Part shown: positions 29,098 through 44,621 of the stretch, piece by piece
Layout: every line of letters begins with the position of its first letter
Position numbering within the stretch: the stretch's first letter is position 1
From: an uncultured Sphingomonadaceae bacterium
GTDB taxonomy: Bacteria > Pseudomonadota > Alphaproteobacteria > Sphingomonadales > Sphingomonadaceae
Length of the DNA stretch: 64,000 nucleotides
Reading direction: 5' to 3'
NCBI GenBank assembly: GCA_947493215.1
Contig: CANLQE010000001.1
Location: forward strand, 372,001 to 436,000
Notes under the pieces: model-generated
What the model was told of the DNA's origin: nothing
Seen by the model: only the letters and a program-made list of their open reading frames with translations
Database searches by the model: none
Program-made: the position numbers and the translations under genes

Positions 29098-30057
29098 CTA
29101 AATATGTTCGCCCGTTAACCGCTGACAAATAAGGTCCAGCTGATCGAGATTGCTATAATCTATGGTCATCGATCCGGCGCCGGTCTGTCCGTTGGACTGG
29201 ATCGTTACTTTCAAACCAAGCAGGTCACCCAAATGGCTTTCAACGGCTCGTATATCAGCATCATTTTCACTGACCCCAGCTGACGGCAGTTTGTTTTTGC
29301 GCCGCGTTCCGCCCAAGGCTTTACGCACGAGCTTCTCTGTGTCCCGAACTGACAGTCCCTGTTTCACGACCTGCTTAGACAGTTCCACCGCATCAGGAGC
29401 ATTAATGAGCGCCCGCGCATGCCCCATCGTCAGCTTGTCTTCTCCCACCAAATTGCGAACAGATTCAGGCAAATCCAATAATCGCATGAGATTCGCGATA
29501 TGGCTCCGGGATTTACCGACCAATTCCGCCAATTTTGCTTGACTATGGCCAAAATCATCTTTCAGCTTCACATAGGCTTCGGCTTCTTCAACAGCGTTGA
29601 GATCACGACGCTGCACATTTTCAACAATCGCAATCTCCAGTGTTTCAGCGTCATTAAGACTGCGAACAATCGCTGGAACACGGTGAAGCCGGGCACGTTG
29701 CGCCGCGCGCCAGCGGCGTTCGCCGGCAACAATCTGAAAATTTTTACCATGGGGCCGCACGACGATAGGTTGAATCACCCCACGCAGCTTCATGCTATCG
29801 GCCAGTTCATCCAGCGCCTCATTGTCAAAAGTCTGACGCGGCTGATCTGGGTTCGGACGGATATCAGATATTGCGATAGACCGTAGGCCGTCTGTACGGG
29901 CCTCTGGACTATTTTCATCAATCTGTGCTTCTGTTGCCTGAATCAAAGGTTCTTCGCGCTGAATCTCACCAAAAAGGGAGTTTAGCCCCCTTCCCAGTCC
30001 AGTAGCTTTTTTAATCGCAGCCTTTTTCGGCAATGGAGCTTCCTCTTCTTTCGCCAT
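29098..30057 (-). CDS. parB: Chromosome partitioning protein ParB
   Basis: The 319-residue protein has the ParB/Spo0J layout. A basic N-terminal stretch with GLGRGLNSLF is the ParA-contact motif. The CTP-binding domain contains PNPDQPRQTFD, QPIVVRP and GERRWRAAQRA. A helix-turn-helix (SQAKLAELVGKSRSHIANLMRLL) binds parS, and a C-terminal dimer domain ends the protein. It loads at parS sites and spreads to organise the origin region. ATG 30057 shares one base with the parA stop (TGATG). Four parS sites lie 0.9-12.5 kb away. Confidence 0.95.
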   Translation of the reverse strand: MAKEEEAPLPKKAAIKKATGLGRGLNSLFGEIQREEPLIQATEAQIDENSPEARTDGLRSIAISDIRPNPDQPRQTFDNEALDELADSMKLRGVIQPIVVRPHGKNFQIVAGERRWRAAQRARLHRVPAIVRSLNDAETLEIAIVENVQRRDLNAVEEAEAYVKLKDDFGHSQAKLAELVGKSRSHIANLMRLLDLPESVRNLVGEDKLTMGHARALINAPDAVELSKQVVKQGLSVRDTEKLVRKALGGTRRKNKLPSAGVSENDADIRAVESHLGDLLGLKVTIQSNGQTGAGSMTIDYSNLDQLDLICQRLTGEHI

Positions 30058-30839
30058 CACGCAGCCACCTTCCGTTCTGGCAGACGCGTAATCAATTCCC
30101 GCGCCAGATTGATATAGGCTTCCGATCCGCTACACCGGTGATCATAGATCAAAGCCGGCAAGCCATGGCTTGGAGCCTCTGAAAGCCTCACATTTCTGGG
30201 GATTACCGTATCAAATACAACATTTCCAAGACAGGCTCGAACATCGTCGGAAACCTGTTCGGTCAGCTTGTTGCGGCGATCATACATGGTCAGCACGACA
30301 CCCATGACCGACAATGCACGATTAAAACGCGCTCTTATACGTTCAACAGTCTGCAGCAACTGGCTCAGCCCCTCCAATGCAAAAAATTCGCATTGCAGCG
30401 GCACCAACAACGATTCAACAGCGACCATTGCGTTGAGGGTCAACAAGCCAAGCGACGGCGGGCAATCGATCAGACAGATGTCCCACCGACCATCATCACC
30501 CGCGTCCAGGGCTTTCTTGAGACGATGAGTCCGCTCTTCAAACTCGACCAACTCAATTTCCGCGCCAGACAGATCCACAACCGCCGGCACAATATCAAGT
30601 CCAGGTACCCGCGTTTGGATCGCACATTCAGCCAACGGGATATCGGAAATCAGCAGATCATAGCTGCTATGCGTGCGCTCTGCCTGGTTCAGGCCAAGCC
30701 CTGTCGATGCGTTACCCTGTGGATCTAGGTCAATCAGCAAGACTTTCCAACCACTCGCAGCAAGAGCGGTTGCCATATTAATGGCTGTGGTCGTTTTACC
30801 AACACCGCCTTTTTGATTTGCTATCGCTATCCGGACCAT
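30057..30839 (-). CDS. parA: Chromosome partitioning ATPase ParA
   Basis: The 260-residue Walker-type ATPase has the deviant Walker A KGGVGKTTT near 10-18, LLIDLDPQGNAS as Walker A' and CLIDCPPSLGLLT as Walker B. It binds DNA non-specifically as an ATP dimer and drives ParB-parS complexes toward the cell pole. It is located between rsmG and parB in the common alphaproteobacterial order mnmG-rsmG-parA-parB. Start ATG at 30839; 43 nt separate it from the rsmG stop. Confidence 0.96.
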   Translation of the reverse strand: MVRIAIANQKGGVGKTTTAINMATALAASGWKVLLIDLDPQGNASTGLGLNQAERTHSSYDLLISDIPLAECAIQTRVPGLDIVPAVVDLSGAEIELVEFEERTHRLKKALDAGDDGRWDICLIDCPPSLGLLTLNAMVAVESLLVPLQCEFFALEGLSQLLQTVERIRARFNRALSVMGVVLTMYDRRNKLTEQVSDDVRACLGNVVFDTVIPRNVRLSEAPSHGLPALIYDHRCSGSEAYINLARELITRLPERKVAA

Positions 30840-30882: not shown

Positions 30883-31500
30883 TCAGCCTATCCCAACCAA
30901 TATTCCCGCTTCCGGGTCGGTCAAACTATGTTCCACGTGGAACATTTTTTGTCGTTTTGGCGATAGGCCTTTTAACTCCCTTACCGCATTTTTGCCTTTA
31001 GGTAAGAGCCAAACAGTATTATCTGTGGAAAACCGGTGTGAAAGTGACAATAGTTTCTGTAATGGCGCAAAAGCTCTGGCACTAATAACGTCCACAGGAT
31101 GGCTTTCGACATTCTCCAAACGCTCTCCAAAAACCAAGGCGTTTTCGGTCAATCCCAGCTTCTGCACGACAGTTTCAAGGAAGGCGCTCCGGCGAGAGCG
31201 TGATTCCACCATCTGCACTTTATAGTCGCTCAATATCGCAATGATGATCCCGGGGAAACCTGCACCGGTCCCAAGGTCCATCCAAATCTTACCGTTCCCG
31301 TCCTTGGGCGCGTGCATCAGCAACTGAGCACTATCGACAACATGGCGGTCCCAAATATGATCGGCGCTTGATTTGGAAATGAGATTCTGGAGCAACATTT
31401 CTTCAGCTAGCAAGGCCAGAAAAGCCTCAAGCTTTTCCCATGTTTCACGTGGAACATCAAAATTCTTGCGCAGCCAATCCTGCGCCTCTTGTTCCGTCAT
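30883..31500 (-). CDS. rsmG: 16S rRNA (guanine527-N7)-methyltransferase RsmG
   Basis: RsmG methylates G527 of 16S rRNA using S-adenosylmethionine. The SAM loop MDLGTGAGFPGI lies near residue 70 and VISARAFAPL is the following RsmG motif. ATG 31500 (205 residues) gives the family's usual length; the frame is open further upstream into mnmG but that would be 30 residues too long. Two parS sites are embedded in the coding sequence: one encodes VPRETW near the N-terminus, the other MFHVEH near the C-terminus. The gene starts 8 nt after the mnmG stop. Confidence 0.94.
   Translation of the reverse strand: MTEQEAQDWLRKNFDVPRETWEKLEAFLALLAEEMLLQNLISKSSADHIWDRHVVDSAQLLMHAPKDGNGKIWMDLGTGAGFPGIIIAILSDYKVQMVESRSRRSAFLETVVQKLGLTENALVFGERLENVESHPVDVISARAFAPLQKLLSLSHRFSTDNTVWLLPKGKNAVRELKGLSPKRQKMFHVEHSLTDPEAGILVGIG
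30929..30944. other. parS: parS site 1 (within rsmG, 3' part)
   Basis: TGTTCCACGTGGAACA is a perfect 16-bp palindrome and fits the ParB-binding consensus TGTTNCACGTGNAACA. It is read through as rsmG codons for M-F-H-V-E-H. Confidence 0.93.
31441..31456. other. parS: parS site 2 (within rsmG, 5' part)
   Basis: TGTTTCACGTGGAACA matches the ParB consensus with one non-palindromic position. It encodes VPRET of RsmG on the minus strand. Confidence 0.9.
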
Positions 31501-33442: not shown

Positions 33443-33458
33443 TGTTCCACGTGGAACA
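33443..33458. other. parS: parS site 3 (mnmE-mnmG intergenic)
   Basis: TGTTCCACGTGGAACA, a perfect palindrome identical to site 1, lies in the 89-nt gap between mnmE and mnmG, 5 nt from the mnmE stop codon. Confidence 0.94.
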
Positions 33459-39263: not shown

Positions 39264-39707
39264 TTAAAACGGTTTCACAATCACCAAAATCACGGTTATG
39301 GCCGCCGCAATTCCGGGCACTTCGTTCACCAAACGCAATTTCTTGTCCGTCATCGTCCGCTCACCGCGCGCCAGCTTTTTGACATAGCCCATCATCCAGC
39401 CATGATAGCCTGACAGCAGCAAAACCACGAGCAATTTGGCGTGAAACCAGCCCTGGCTGAATGCGCCGATATTATACGCAAGTACCAATCCCAAAACCCA
39501 GACAATGATCAGCGAGGGATTGAGAATGATCTTGCGCAGCTTGGCTTCGCGTTCAATCCATTTGCCATCTTCTTGCGATCCAACAGCTGATTCCTGATGA
39601 TAGACGAAGAAACGCGGCATCATGAAAAGACCCGCCATCCAGAAAATGACAAAGATAAGATGTGCCGATTTTAACCAGAGATAGAGCATGGATATTATTT
39701 CATTCAT
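39264..39707 (-). CDS. hemJ: Protoporphyrinogen IX oxidase HemJ
   Basis: The 147-residue membrane protein has four predicted helices. The HLIFVIFWMAGLFMMPRFFVYH stretch near 16-37 contains a conserved His and the MPR-FVYH motif of HemJ. A second set of conserved residues lies in WFHAKLLVVLLLSGYHGWM. HemJ oxidises protoporphyrinogen IX to protoporphyrin IX with b-haem. Its start overlaps the hemE stop by 4 nt, so two haem biosynthesis steps are translated together. Confidence 0.88.
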   Translation of the reverse strand: MNEIISMLYLWLKSAHLIFVIFWMAGLFMMPRFFVYHQESAVGSQEDGKWIEREAKLRKIILNPSLIIVWVLGLVLAYNIGAFSQGWFHAKLLVVLLLSGYHGWMMGYVKKLARGERTMTDKKLRLVNEVPGIAAAITVILVIVKPF

Positions 39708-40738
39708 TGCCGGACGAGTGTAAGCAGCTTTTCAACATGTTCAATGGGCGTGTCCGGTAATATCCCATGACCCAAATTGAAAATATGCGGCCGATCTTCA
39801 AAGACTTGCAAGATATGGCGCACCGATTTTTCCAGCGCGTCGCCGCCAGCGATCAGGGCCAAAGGATCAAGATTCCCTTGCAGTGGCAGGTCCGCTGGCA
39901 GGTTTTTATGAGCCCAGACCGGATCGACTGTCTCATCCAGACCAATGGCATCAGCCCCTGTTTCTTGGGCGTAAGCAACCAGTTTGGCGCCCGCGCCTTT
40001 GGGGAAACCGATAATCGGCAGATCGGGATGAACGGCCTTTATCCGCGCTATAATTTCCGCATTGGGTGCAATCACCCATTTTTCAAATTGTGCAGGAGAT
40101 AGCGTCCCTGCCCAGCTGTCGAACAATTGTATCGCATCCACCCCGGCATCAATCTGACCGAGCAGATAGGTCACGGTATTGTGGATGATCGCACGGATCA
40201 ATTCTGAAAAAGCCGCTTCATCTTTATAGGCATAGCGCCGGGTTACAGCCTGATCCTTGCTGCCTTGCCCATGAGTCATATAGGTTGCGATGGTCCAGGG
40301 ACTTCCGGCAAAGCCCATGAAGGTGGTTTTATCATCCAGCTGCGCAGCGACATGCCGAACCGTATTATAAATAGCCTCAAAATGCTCTGGAGCCGCCTCT
40401 AGAGACGATAAAGCGGCATCGACCAGTCTTGGTGACAGCCGGGGTCCTTCTCCTGCCTCAAACCACAGTTTCTGACCCATGGCATGTGGCACGATCAAAA
40501 TATCTGAAAACAGGATCGCGCCGTCAAAACCGAAACGCTTGATCGGTTGCACCGTAACCTCGGCCGCGGCCTCTGCATCATAGCAAAGCTCCAGAAATCC
40601 GCCTTTTTGTGCGCGTAACTCTCGATATTCCGGTAAATAGCGGCCCGCTTGGCGCATAAGCCAGACCGGAGTCTGAGATGTTTTTCTGCCATGCAAGGTT
40701 TCGAGCAAAATTTTCTGGGAGTCGGTAGCGTCAGGCAT
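39704..40738 (-). CDS. hemE: Uroporphyrinogen decarboxylase HemE
   Basis: The 344-residue enzyme contains WLMRQAGRYLPEYR near 25-38, the substrate-binding signature, then GFAGSPWTIATYM and the C-terminal FNLGHGILPDTP. It removes four carboxyl groups from uroporphyrinogen III in haem synthesis. ATG 40738 is preferred; an in-frame TTG at 40756 would add six residues and run into the AT-rich origin segment. hemE beside the origin is also the situation in Caulobacter crescentus, where hemE transcription starts inside oriC. Confidence 0.95.
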   Translation of the reverse strand: MPDATDSQKILLETLHGRKTSQTPVWLMRQAGRYLPEYRELRAQKGGFLELCYDAEAAAEVTVQPIKRFGFDGAILFSDILIVPHAMGQKLWFEAGEGPRLSPRLVDAALSSLEAAPEHFEAIYNTVRHVAAQLDDKTTFMGFAGSPWTIATYMTHGQGSKDQAVTRRYAYKDEAAFSELIRAIIHNTVTYLLGQIDAGVDAIQLFDSWAGTLSPAQFEKWVIAPNAEIIARIKAVHPDLPIIGFPKGAGAKLVAYAQETGADAIGLDETVDPVWAHKNLPADLPLQGNLDPLALIAGGDALEKSVRHILQVFEDRPHIFNLGHGILPDTPIEHVEKLLTLVRQ

Positions 40739-41040
40739 AAGATAAGGGTCACCCAATATAATAATATAGTATATTTAAAGAATCTTGTTGATGATGATAG
40801 AGCGTGGATAGGAGAGGTAAAACGGGTCTACCGTGATTACAAACAGATTGACAGACGGCTGTTAACGAAAAATTTACCGATTCCCAAATTTCATCCCCAC
40901 TATCCACAATCTGTGGATGAAAGTTTCAAAACTTGGCCGGCTGTGGATAGAAATCGGGATGATGGGGATCAAAAATCAGATGCCAAATATCCCGCATTCA
41001 TCCCTTGCTTTATCCACAATGAAATCACAGGGTTGCGGGC
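40739..41040. other. oriC: Chromosomal replication origin (oriC), predicted
   Basis: This 302-nt gap has no gene. It holds an AT-only-like segment (about 40755-40783) suited to DNA unwinding, four DnaA boxes between 40900 and 41018, two GANTC methylation sites (40780-40784 and 40879-40883) and a CtrA-like TTAA-N7-TTTA at 40862-40876. Flanking genes are hemE on the left and ppsR-maf-aroE-coaE-dnaQ on the right, the order seen at the C. crescentus origin. Genes diverge from this point, and parS sites are close by. No experiment supports it; a GC-skew plot of the genome would be the first test. Confidence 0.88.
40900..41018. promoter_or_regulatory. Cluster of four DnaA boxes
   Basis: Boxes relative to TTATCCACA: CTATCCACA at 40900-40908 (+), TCATCCACA at 40912-40920 (-), CTATCCACA at 40942-40950 (-) and the exact TTATCCACA at 41010-41018 (+). 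The first two face each other only 3 nt apart. Weaker candidates with two mismatches lie at 40803-40811 (-) and 40891-40899 (+). Confidence 0.88.
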
Positions 41041-41874
41041 ATGAATCGTTTGCATCTTCATATGTTATCGGACTCCACTGGTGAGACGCTGGAGAATATC
41101 GCAAAAGCCGCGCTGGCGCAATTTGATGGCGTGGAAATTATCAAACATTTCTGGCCGATGGTACGCTCTGAAACCCATTTGAACCGGATATTGGTTGAGG
41201 TAGCGGATAACCCCGGTCTCGTCATTTTCACATTGGTCAATAGCGATATCCGCGCGCGGCTGGAAAGGGAATGCCGCCATCTCGGCTTGCCGGTTGTGCC
41301 AGCCTTAGACACGGTAACAGACGCGCTGTCCAATATGTTGGGACAGGAAGCCAAGGCGCGGCCGGGCCGCCAACATATATTGGATGCCGCTTATTTTGAA
41401 CGGGTTGAGGCGATCCAGTTCACCATTGCCCATGATGATGGCATCGGTTGGGAAAACTGGGAGGAGGCGGATATTGTTTTGGCCGGCGTTTCGCGGACTT
41501 CGAAAACGCCGACTTCGATATATTTGGCCAATCGCGGGTATAAAACTGCGAACATTCCGATTGTTCCAGAATCCCCGCCACCCGATGCGCTTTATCGTTT
41601 GAAAAACCCCCTGGTCGTCGGTCTGATCGCAGGGGCGAGCCGGTTGGTACAGGTGCGGCGTAATCGGTTGTTGTCGCTTAATCAGGCTCCGGAAACCGAC
41701 TATGTCGACGAAGAAAAGGTCAAAGCTGAAATTCAATATGCACGGCGCATGTTTGCAGATAATGGATGGTCGACAATCGACGTGACGCGGCGCTCCATTG
41801 AGGAATCGGCCGCCGCGATCATCAATTTTTATAACGAACGTCACACGGAACAAAAGAGCTCAACCGATGAGTGA
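41041..41874 (+). CDS. ppsR: Pyruvate, water dikinase regulatory protein (PpsR/DUF299)
   Basis: The 277-residue protein opens HLHMLSDSTGETLENIAKAAL, the DUF299 N-terminal motif, and has GVSRTSKTPTSIYLANRG near 151-168, the nucleotide-binding loop of the family. Members are both kinase (ADP-using) and phosphorylase, switching PEP synthetase or pyruvate phosphate dikinase off and on. Start ATG comes directly after the origin gap. It overlaps maf by 8 nt. The homologous gene in C. crescentus is the first gene on the dnaQ side of the origin. Confidence 0.92.
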   Translation: MNRLHLHMLSDSTGETLENIAKAALAQFDGVEIIKHFWPMVRSETHLNRILVEVADNPGLVIFTLVNSDIRARLERECRHLGLPVVPALDTVTDALSNMLGQEAKARPGRQHILDAAYFERVEAIQFTIAHDDGIGWENWEEADIVLAGVSRTSKTPTSIYLANRGYKTANIPIVPESPPPDALYRLKNPLVVGLIAGASRLVQVRRNRLLSLNQAPETDYVDEEKVKAEIQYARRMFADNGWSTIDVTRRSIEESAAAIINFYNERHTEQKSSTDE

Positions 41875-42484
41875 TGGTCTGCCCGAACCGATGTTGATCT
41901 TGGCCTCAAAGAGCAAAGCGCGGCGCGCGATGCTGGAGGCAGCTGGCGTCGTAATTGAATCGCTGGCGCCCAATGTTGATGAAGACGCTTTGAAAGAAGG
42001 GCTGCGGGCCGATGGTGTGACGGCGCGCAACTTGGCTGACGCGCTGGCTGAAGCGAAAGCGGTGCGATTGTCCCGGCGCATAGGGGTGGCATTGGTACTG
42101 GGCGGTGATCAGCTTCTCGCCTTGGAAGACGGGTCCATGCTCGACAAGCCGGTTGATCGCGATGATGCCAAAGCCCATTTGCGACTGCTCTCTGGCAAGA
42201 AACATAAGCTCTTCAGCGCGGCAGTGATCGCGGATCAGGGGTCGCCCTTGTGGCGGCACGTAGATATCGCCACTTTGACGATGCGGCCGTTAAGCGATGC
42301 GTTTATCGATAGCTATGTCGATGCCGAATGGGACAATATCCGCCACTGTGTGGGATGCTACGAGATTGAAGGGCGCGGCGCGCAGCTTTTTTCAGATATT
42401 AAAGGGAGTCAATTTACGATCATGGGTTTGCCACTGCTGCATTTGCTTGACTATTTGCGCGTCAGAGGCGTGATGCCGTCATGA
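41867..42484 (+). CDS. maf: Maf-family nucleotide pyrophosphatase
   Basis: From ATG 41867 the protein has 205 residues. MLILASKSKARRAMLEAAG is the Maf nucleotide-binding start (SKSKARR in place of the common SxSPRR), and GDQLLALEDG holds the catalytic acidic residues. Maf proteins hydrolyse non-canonical or modified NTPs to guard the nucleotide pool. The longer frame from 41798 is rejected since it overlaps ppsR by 77 nt. The stop overlaps aroE by four bases. Confidence 0.92.
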   Translation: MSDGLPEPMLILASKSKARRAMLEAAGVVIESLAPNVDEDALKEGLRADGVTARNLADALAEAKAVRLSRRIGVALVLGGDQLLALEDGSMLDKPVDRDDAKAHLRLLSGKKHKLFSAAVIADQGSPLWRHVDIATLTMRPLSDAFIDSYVDAEWDNIRHCVGCYEIEGRGAQLFSDIKGSQFTIMGLPLLHLLDYLRVRGVMPS

Positions 42485-43299
42485 CCCAAACACTGCCCTA
42501 TGCGGAAGTGATCGGCGATCCGATTGCGCACAGCAAATCACCGATAATCCATAATTTCTGGCTTCAAAAGCTCGGGATTAAAGCCGATTATCGGATGTTC
42601 CACGTGAAACCGGAAGAATTGGGCGATTATATTGCCACCCGCCGTGATGACCCGAATTGGCAGGGCTGCAATGTTACGCTTCCCCATAAATTGGCCGTGA
42701 TGGATCATGTGTCTGATCCGGGAGAAGTGCGTTCCTCTATCGGCGCAATGAACACCATTGCCCGGACGGAAAACGGCGATCTTTTTGGCACAAACACCGA
42801 CGCTGGCGGCTTTTTCGCGCCTATTGCCGATGTTCCGTTGAGCGGTCAGGATGTCATTGTTGTTGGCGCTGGTGGCGCTGCCCAAGCGGTTTTATTCGCT
42901 TTATCCCGCATTGATGTGGGTTCTGTCACCATGATCAATCGCAATGTTCTTAAAGCTTCGGCCTTGTTGCTCCGCTTTGGGCTCAAGGGGCAGGCATTGG
43001 AACATGGCTCTGCCCTTCCCCAAGCCCGCCTACTGATCAATTCCAGCGCGCTTGGCATGAAGGGGCAGGATGAGCTGAAGATTGATTTGGAAGGGTTGCC
43101 CGATGACGCGATTGTCTATGATCTGGTCTATACGCCGATCAAAACGAAATTGCTTAAGGCTGCCAAGGCGCGAGGCCTTGATACGATTGATGGCTTGTCG
43201 ATGCTAATTGGACAAGCGGCGGTGGCTTTTGAAATTTTCTTTGGCCAGGCTCCGCCACTAGAGCATGACGAAGAGCTGAGAAAGCTGCTCCTGGCATGA
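42481..43299 (+). CDS. aroE: Shikimate dehydrogenase
   Basis: The 272-residue enzyme has GDPIAHSKSPIIHN (shikimate-binding Ser pair), catalytic Lys in NVTLPHK near 63-69, Asp in NTDAGGF near 102, and the NADP loop VVGAGGAAQAVLFAL. It reduces 3-dehydroshikimate to shikimate in aromatic amino acid synthesis. A parS site is embedded at codons for M-F-H-V-K-P. Both ends overlap neighbours by four bases, so maf-aroE-coaE are co-translated. Confidence 0.95.
   Translation: MTQTLPYAEVIGDPIAHSKSPIIHNFWLQKLGIKADYRMFHVKPEELGDYIATRRDDPNWQGCNVTLPHKLAVMDHVSDPGEVRSSIGAMNTIARTENGDLFGTNTDAGGFFAPIADVPLSGQDVIVVGAGGAAQAVLFALSRIDVGSVTMINRNVLKASALLLRFGLKGQALEHGSALPQARLLINSSALGMKGQDELKIDLEGLPDDAIVYDLVYTPIKTKLLKAAKARGLDTIDGLSMLIGQAAVAFEIFFGQAPPLEHDEELRKLLLA
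42596..42611. other. parS: parS site 4 (within aroE)
   Basis: TGTTCCACGTGAAACC differs from the consensus TGTTNCACGTGNAACA only in its last base. It lies 1.6 kb right of the origin, the only one on that side in this window, and is read as part of aroE. Confidence 0.75.
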
Positions 43300-43895
43300 C
43301 AAAACCGATGATCATCGGCCTGACCGGTTCTATCGGCATGGGCAAATCGACGGTCGCGCAGATGTTTGCGGACGAAGGCGTCCCTATTTTTGACGCCGAT
43401 GCTGCCGTGCACGTCTTGCAGGGGCCGGGCGGCGCGTTGGTGTCGCAAATCGAAGCTTTGTTTCCTGGGACTACCAATGAAATGGGCGTCGATCGTCAGA
43501 AGTTGGGCCCTGCCGTGCTAGGCAATCCAGATGCGCTGGCCAAATTGGAAGCTCTGATTCATCCGGCAGTCGGGGCGATGCGGCTTGAATTTCTCGACCA
43601 GAATAAAACCGCTCCGATGATATTGTTCGACATTCCATTATTGTTCGAAAAAAGCGGCGCTGCCGGTATCGATCACGTCATCGTGGTGTCCGCATCGGCC
43701 GAAGATCAGCGGGAGCGCGTGCTGCGCCGCCCCGGGATGACGCCGGAAAAATTTGCAAAGATAAACGCCCTGCAAATGCCGGATGAAGAAAAGCGCAAAC
43801 GGGCTGATTTTGTAATCGACACATCGCAGTCTCTGGAAGAAACACGGCAGCAGGTGCAAAATACCATAGAAAAATTGAAAGCTTCTCTTGCCTAA
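43296..43895 (+). CDS. coaE: Dephospho-CoA kinase
   Basis: The 199-residue P-loop kinase has GLTGSIGMGKSTVAQMF at the N-terminus, FDADAAVHVL as the dephospho-CoA contact and DIPLLFEKSG as the CoaE motif. It phosphorylates the 3'-OH of dephospho-CoA, the last step of CoA synthesis. Start overlaps aroE stop (ATGA); dnaQ follows after 27 nt. Confidence 0.95.
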   Translation: MTKPMIIGLTGSIGMGKSTVAQMFADEGVPIFDADAAVHVLQGPGGALVSQIEALFPGTTNEMGVDRQKLGPAVLGNPDALAKLEALIHPAVGAMRLEFLDQNKTAPMILFDIPLLFEKSGAAGIDHVIVVSASAEDQRERVLRRPGMTPEKFAKINALQMPDEEKRKRADFVIDTSQSLEETRQQVQNTIEKLKASLA

Positions 43896-43922: not shown

Positions 43923-44621
43923 ATGCGTGAGATAATTTTCGACACTGAAACCACCGGATTCGACCCTCAAAGTGGCGACCGGATGGTCGAAATAGGCTGC
44001 ATTGAAATGGTCGACCGGATTGAAACCGGTAATAGCTTTCATTGCTATTATAATCCGCAGCGTCCGATGCCGAAATCAGCAGAAGAAGTACACGGACTTT
44101 CGGACATATTCCTGTCCGACAAAAAGCTGTTCGCGCACGGCGCAGACGAACTGCTCGAATTTCTTGGTGACGCTAATCTGGTCGCGCACAATGCGCAGTT
44201 TGATTTTAATTTCCTGAATGCTGAGCTGATCTTGTGCGGTAAGACAGCGATCTCGCAATTTCGTATGGTCGATACGCTGGCAATCGCAAAGGTGAAACAC
44301 CCCGGCGCGAAATTGTCTTTGGACGCGCTGTGTAGCCGCTACGGCATTGATCGCAGCCATCGCGTGAAACATGGCGCTTTGCTTGATGCAGAATTGCTGA
44401 CACAGCTTTATATCGAGCTTACCGGTGGCCGGCAGATTGGCCTTGGGTTGGCGGATGATAAAGCGGTTTCCGATGCCAATGAGCGCCAACCGACGCAAAA
44501 GGAAGCAGCGTTGCGGCGGCAGTTTATCGCGCCGCGACCGCATAGCGCCAGCGCCGAAGAACTCACGCGTCATGCGGCGTTTATGGAAGGCATAAAAGAC
44601 CCACTCTGGGCCAAAAGCTGA
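43923..44621 (+). CDS. dnaQ: DNA polymerase III epsilon subunit (3'-5' exonuclease)
   Basis: The 232-residue DEDDh exonuclease has Exo I IFDTETTGFD near 5-14, Exo II VAHNAQFDFNFL and Exo III HGALLDAELLTQLY with the catalytic His. A C-terminal tail binds the polymerase core. It proofreads during replication. Its place next to the origin follows the alphaproteobacterial order maf-aroE-coaE-dnaQ; the secB gene that usually follows is missing here and hpf comes instead. Confidence 0.95.
   Translation: MREIIFDTETTGFDPQSGDRMVEIGCIEMVDRIETGNSFHCYYNPQRPMPKSAEEVHGLSDIFLSDKKLFAHGADELLEFLGDANLVAHNAQFDFNFLNAELILCGKTAISQFRMVDTLAIAKVKHPGAKLSLDALCSRYGIDRSHRVKHGALLDAELLTQLYIELTGGRQIGLGLADDKAVSDANERQPTQKEAALRRQFIAPRPHSASAEELTRHAAFMEGIKDPLWAKS

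Follow-up and report, generated by a model that had tools for sequence, protein, structure and literature searches.

A predicted hemE-type chromosome origin in a Parasphingorhabdus-like sphingomonad and its comparative anatomy within the family

The chromosome origin of Caulobacter crescentus (Cori) lies between hemE and a COG1806 gene and, as described in PMC1914354 and PMC4285127, combines an AT-rich stretch, DnaA boxes, weak sites of the TCCCCA type and CtrA-type motifs. hemE and COG1806 are also given as the boundaries of the Rickettsia origin (PMC1914354). The predicted origins of Rickettsia prowazekii and Wolbachia have hemE as a boundary, and DnaA, CtrA and IHF motifs served as criteria for them, the second boundary gene in Wolbachia being COG1253, unlike the ppsR/COG1806 gene found here (PMC1914354). 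Closer to the present genome, DoriC places the predicted origin on the hemE side in most Sphingomonadaceae, and the Ori-Finder/DoriC predictions for Sphingopyxis granuli TFA and other members of the family share this location, a putative DUE and putative DnaA boxes that are conserved (PMC4741004).

The window analysed here is a 64,000-nucleotide stretch (bases 372001–436000 of contig C1) of an uncultured Sphingomonadaceae assembly of 3,685,390 bases in 11 contigs. The 302-bp gap between its divergent hemE and ppsR genes is, with high confidence, predicted to be the chromosome origin (oriC) of a sphingomonad. The earlier note had called the gap a complete candidate oriC, a claim that is now supported by a change in GC skew, a cluster of parS-type sites, a unique DnaA-box cluster, and conserved synteny and spacing. 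The predicted oriC is an ordinary hemE-type alphaproteobacterial origin, standard for the class and no new kind; what is new, as read from sequence comparison, is its anatomy, namely a facing box pair within the family, two conserved blocks and a CtrA-like site largely limited to the genus. With the origin placed in an 11-contig genome, replication strand and the copy-number gradient become readable from the predicted oriC. The gap and its neighbours are as follows.

40739–41040, no strand: predicted oriC, intergenic between divergent hemE and ppsR (motifs, skew, synteny, conservation)
39704–40738, minus strand: hemE, left boundary gene, ATG at 40738 (TIGR01464, above cut-off)
41041–41874, plus strand: ppsR (COG1806/DUF299 type), right boundary gene, ATG at 41041 (NF003742, above cut-off)
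41867–42484, plus strand: maf-like gene (Maf models, below curated cut-offs)
42481–43299, plus strand: aroE (TIGR00507, above cut-off)
43296–43895, plus strand: coaE (TIGR00152, above cut-off)
43923–44621, plus strand: dnaQ (TIGR01406, above cut-off)

A rho gene in the neighbourhood was also confirmed by family model (NCBIfam). PpsR is taken here to be the COG1806 protein. Of the Caulobacter-like flanks proposed for the locus, hemE and the COG1806 gene agree with the boundaries of PMC1914354, and the gap resembles Cori in having an AT-rich stretch, DnaA boxes, weak TCCCCA-type sites and a putative CtrA-type motif. It differs in being shorter (302 bp versus more than 400 bp), in carrying one imperfect CtrA-like site where five CtrA sites are described for Cori, and in its boxes, which read TTATCCACA, CTATCCACA and TCATCCACA where Cori has the TGATCCACA G-box.

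The divergent hemE–gap–ppsR layout was present in 109 of 110 loci, drawn from 30 of 57 PpsR matches plus the best 80 of 561 (sets that overlap in genomes and include the window's own genome, L001), and these yielded 95 distinct gap sequences; the exception, L125, had no HemE match. A further 26 regions, representing 26 of the remaining 27 PpsR matches (G050 was omitted on account of a match starting at residue 88), showed the same layout in 25 cases, with the last (L156) starting at ppsR, and the 25 further gaps comprise four from the same family and 21 from other families of the order. A PpsR match was absent from two of the 59 genomes searched: the same-genus G014, with a completeness rating of 99%, yielded matches to none of ppsR, hemE and gap DNA, and in G052 hemE was found, yet neither gap DNA nor PpsR was matched. 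Among the best 80 of 561 matches, the nearest by PpsR were uncultured Sphingomonadaceae isolates and the nearest named species were Parasphingorhabdus marina and P. flavimaris, which makes the host a Parasphingorhabdus-like sphingomonad. By kinship and PpsR identity, the 95 distinct gaps were split into 28 genus-like sequences (from L001–L024 and L051–L067) and 67 from elsewhere in the family.

The DnaA boxes and weaker DnaA-like sites of the gap are listed below.

40900–40908, plus strand: DnaA box 1, CTATCCACA, left half of the facing pair (one mismatch)
40912–40920, minus strand: DnaA box 2, TCATCCACA, right half of the facing pair (one mismatch)
40942–40950, minus strand: DnaA box 3, CTATCCACA (one mismatch)
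41010–41018, plus strand: DnaA box 4, TTATCCACA (exact consensus)
40786–40794, minus strand: two-mismatch DnaA-like box TCATCAACA, adjoining the AT-rich segment and overlapping the conserved run 40792–40798
40803–40811, minus strand: two-mismatch DnaA-like box CTATCCACG (motif scan)
40891–40899, plus strand: TCATCCCCA, containing TCCCCA, the Caulobacter W-box motif (consensus from PMC4285127)
40963–40971, minus strand: TGATCCCCA, containing the W-box motif TCCCCA (from PMC4285127)

The gap had been credited with one exact box and three variants of one to two bases; the count of one plus three stands, while the range was loose, as each variant differs from the consensus by a single base. Two of these boxes do face each other 3 nt apart, with the spacer exactly at 40909–40911, and this is the sole such pair in the window when up to two mismatches per box are allowed. 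Boxes with at most one mismatch number 18 in the 64 kb, four of them inside 119 bp of the gap. Simulating the window 300 times with a first-order Markov model gave a maximum per 302 bp of one box in 196 runs, two in 103 and three in a single run, but never of four, and a chance origin of the cluster was therefore rejected. Across the 3.69-Mb assembly, three exact YTATCCACA motifs inside 500 bp occur in the gap only, and the runner-up, on contig C3, is two motifs separated by about 500 bp; the motif itself is not rare, with 42 matches genome-wide versus 28 for the reversed control. Counting against the origin reading, the gap holds a single exact-consensus box. The strict form TTATNCACA, the DnaA box of PMC1914354, occurs once in the gap, which is also its one occurrence in the entire window. 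Facing boxes 3 nt apart (up to two mismatches in each) recur in 25/28 genus gaps and 42/67 other family gaps; they are also present in two of the 25 further gaps, but there spacings of 4 nt (three gaps) and 11 nt (four) are at least as common. Nine other spacings were also counted, of which 12 nt appears in 8/28 genus gaps. At least two boxes with no more than one mismatch were present in most gaps (25/28 genus, 63/67 other family and 20/25 further gaps), the remainder having just one (3/28, 4/67 and 5/25, respectively), a further point against the origin reading. Separately, a DnaA-trio (BUS) beside the two-mismatch boxes was considered and rejected, as the GATGATGAT run there has, by eye, the wrong polarity relative to what we take to be the trio consensus.

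GC skew changes sign at the gap locus in sampled stretches of both the window genome and the one-contig relative G024. In 2-kb bins of the window, skew is negative in 10/10 bins from 20 to 40 kb and positive in 7/7 from 40 to 54 kb; outside 20–54 kb it is mixed, with 8/10 bins from 1 to 20 kb positive, opposite to the expected sign. Across contig C1, sampled as 20 stretches of 8 kb (two of them inside the window; together about 6% of C1, the one contig of the 11 that was sampled), skew is negative in five of six stretches left of the gap and positive in 12 of 14 on its right, and the negative sample at 2.5 Mb may already be beyond the terminus. In G024, skew is negative in 11 of the 13 samples to the left of the homologous gap and positive in five of the seven to its right. 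The skew signal is weak and noisy, and some samples disagree in both genomes. The earlier note had named a skew minimum elsewhere as a result that would count against it, and the origin claim survived this check on the samples, with exceptions present.

The second line of positional evidence comes from the pattern GTTNCACGTGNAAC, which we take to represent parS-type sites. Its four matches in the genome all lie within 10 kb of the gap, and the reversed control pattern had no match in the whole genome. Similarly, in five one-contig relatives, 17/17 parS-type sites are no more than about 11 kb from the gap beside ppsR (G003 counted as circular).

30929–30944, no strand: parS-type site (pattern match)
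31441–31456, no strand: parS-type site (pattern match)
33443–33458, no strand: parS-type site (pattern match)
42596–42611, no strand: parS-type site inside aroE (pattern match)
29098–30060, minus strand: parB (TIGR00180, above cut-off)
30057–30839, minus strand: parA family gene, adjoining parB (the ParA-type models listed, below curated cut-off)

The site inside aroE (42596–42611) lies on the opposite side of oriC from the other three. Skew, with a resolution of just a few kb, and parS-type sites cannot separate positions a few kb apart, and as three of the four sites are 7–10 kb left of the gap and a second very AT-rich spot lies near 29.0 kb (28-mers with 3 G/C), the origin might be placed in the nearby rho–mnmE–parAB block and not in the gap. 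However, three YTATCCACA motifs within 500 bp are found at no other place in the genome, and it is the gap that has genus-wide conserved non-coding blocks and the published boundary genes, which leaves an origin in the rho–mnmE–parAB block scarcely credible.

A different objection concerns what the gap is for, as hemE and ppsR are divergent and promoters are expected between them. Three weak sigma-70-like matches were found, all on the hemE strand, but this number is near the shuffled mean (3 versus 1.5, s.d. 1.2). That the gap is a mere divergent promoter region where DnaA works as a transcription factor, and that the true origin lies elsewhere, is very improbable, given that the skew change, the parS-type cluster and the unique box cluster coincide here and that published alphaproteobacterial origins sit in the hemE–COG1806 gap (PMC1914354, PMC4741004).

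The dnaA gene itself is on a contig other than that of the predicted oriC (family match G000:C2:347690–349015), and a dnaA away from the origin region is reported as usual in Sphingomonadales (PMC8116508). An exact DnaA box lies at C2:347231–347239, about 450 bp upstream of the dnaA match, and may serve autoregulation.

Taking the gap as the predicted origin, alignment of the genus sequences shows that its conservation extends beyond the DnaA boxes. In the 28 genus sequences, gap columns average 0.82, versus 0.55 for fourfold sites of ppsR, of which 0/44 are invariant. The longest conserved stretches, one block of 16 bp and another of 19 bp, lie mostly outside the DnaA boxes and exceed the conserved runs at the boxes in length.

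40838–40853, no strand: conserved block TACAAACAGATTGACA, core AACA[GT]NTTGAC, loosely IHF-like, putative functional element (genus alignment)
40997–41015, plus strand: longest conserved run TTCATCCCTTGCTTTATCC, running into DnaA box 4, putative functional element (genus alignment)

Each of the 16 columns of the 40838–40853 block is conserved in at least 27/28 distinct genus gaps, as is each of the 19 consecutive columns of TTCATCCCTTGCTTTATCC. Within the genome, ACAAACAGATTGACA from the first block is unique at up to one mismatch and TCATCCCTTGCTTTATCC from the second at up to two. The AACA[GT]NTTGAC core was present in 28/28 genus and 54/67 other family gaps and in 0/25 further gaps; together with the facing box pair and GANTC sites, it belongs to an anatomy common to many family members. 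The last bases of box 4 vary, and many relatives there read TTATCCCC, which resembles the weak W-box TCCCCA (PMC4285127), suggesting that the region of the 19-bp block may be a low-affinity DnaA array. Two other roles were rejected: the 40838–40853 block as a promoter –35 element, as the promoter scan lists no site there, and an RNA element, with no Rfam match at gathering score in 40600–41200.

The gap is richer in AT than the window average (59.3% versus 46.8% for the whole window). The AT-rich segment attributed to it is present, and the window's two 28-mers with the least GC, each with 2 G/C of 28, begin at 40755 and 40756. The two GANTC sites are likewise present, but their number is not striking, as 145 occur in the 64 kb and about 0.7 would be expected in the gap.

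40753–40780, no strand: AT-rich segment, probable duplex unwinding element (lowest-GC 28-mers)
40780–40784, no strand: GANTC (CcrM-type) site 1 (motif scan)
40879–40883, no strand: GANTC site 2, within the conserved run CGATTC (motif scan, genus alignment)

Each column of the GANTC site at 40879–40883 is kept in at least 27/28 genus gaps. Gaps of the genus mostly contain two to three GANTC sites, compared with mostly three to five in the rest of the family.

By analogy with characterised origins, the likeliest course of opening is one in which DnaA acts first. DnaA-ATP would bind the facing pair at 40900–40920 and box 3, and would then spread in both directions over weaker sites, including the TCCCCA motifs and the two-mismatch boxes. 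Bending, perhaps at the conserved 40838–40853 block, would carry the complex to the AT-rich segment at 40753–40780 beside hemE, which would open to allow helicase loading; forks would depart bidirectionally, and the new origins would be segregated by ParAB together with the parS-type sites found within 10 kb. In this scheme, protein binding, opening and the direction of assembly are predicted from the arrangement of the sites.

Whether CtrA has a part in this process is a further question. Under the relaxed rule of PMC1914354 (TTAA-N7-TTAA with one A-to-T change allowed), three CtrA-like sites occur in the window with both strands counted, and the one in the gap, TTAA-N7-TTTA, bears out the CtrA-like site noticed earlier.

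40862–40876, plus strand: CtrA-like site TTAACGAAAAATTTA (one mismatch to TTAA-N7-TTAA)

A CtrA-like site is found at this same place in 20/28 distinct genus gaps and is perfect in seven, in contrast to any such site in only 2/67 other family gaps (near the hemE end) and 1/25 further gaps. Among the 95 distinct gaps, perfect sites are confined to these seven of the genus, compared with a mean of 0.82 and a maximum of five gaps with a site in 200 local shuffles; the genus sites are related and may reflect a single event. It is possible, if doubtful, that the Parasphingorhabdus lineage gained, in the stretch separating the AT-rich segment from the cluster of DnaA boxes, a CtrA site that would place the origin under CtrA control, with the 19-bp block near ppsR as a second, still unnamed control element. 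This reading became slightly likelier with the finding that seven of the eight half-site columns are well conserved (0.93–0.96, the other being 0.46; spacer average 0.83). CtrA control can nonetheless be proposed only as a hypothesis, because the site as a whole (0.86, with 0/15 columns invariant) is near the gap mean of 0.82, its occurrences are related, and Sphingomonas melonis grows without CtrA (PMC8116508). The comparison offers a clear way to test for an effect of CtrA on sphingomonad replication.

Two IHF-type motifs were also compared across the gaps. The form WATCAANNNNTTR, which we assume to be the IHF consensus, was matched in 0/28 genus, 1/67 other family and 0/25 further gaps. The consensus WATCAN5WTR, used for Rickettsia and Wolbachia in PMC1914354, has a putative match in the gap of the window.

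41023–41035, plus strand: match AATCACAGGGTTG to the IHF consensus WATCAN5WTR, putative (about 0.1 expected in the gap)

This match is present at the same place in just 12/28 distinct genus gaps, and any match occurs in three of the 67 other family gaps and three of the 25 further gaps.

Some gaps depart from the common form. The gaps of the Sphingorhabdus-like L078 and L085 have a GC content of just 30% and carry one or two boxes of up to one mismatch. In L072 (5028–5970), the hemE–ppsR gap is about 950 bp long and contains overlapping open frames of 118 aa (minus strand) and 156 aa (plus strand), and looks as if something had been inserted into the origin region.
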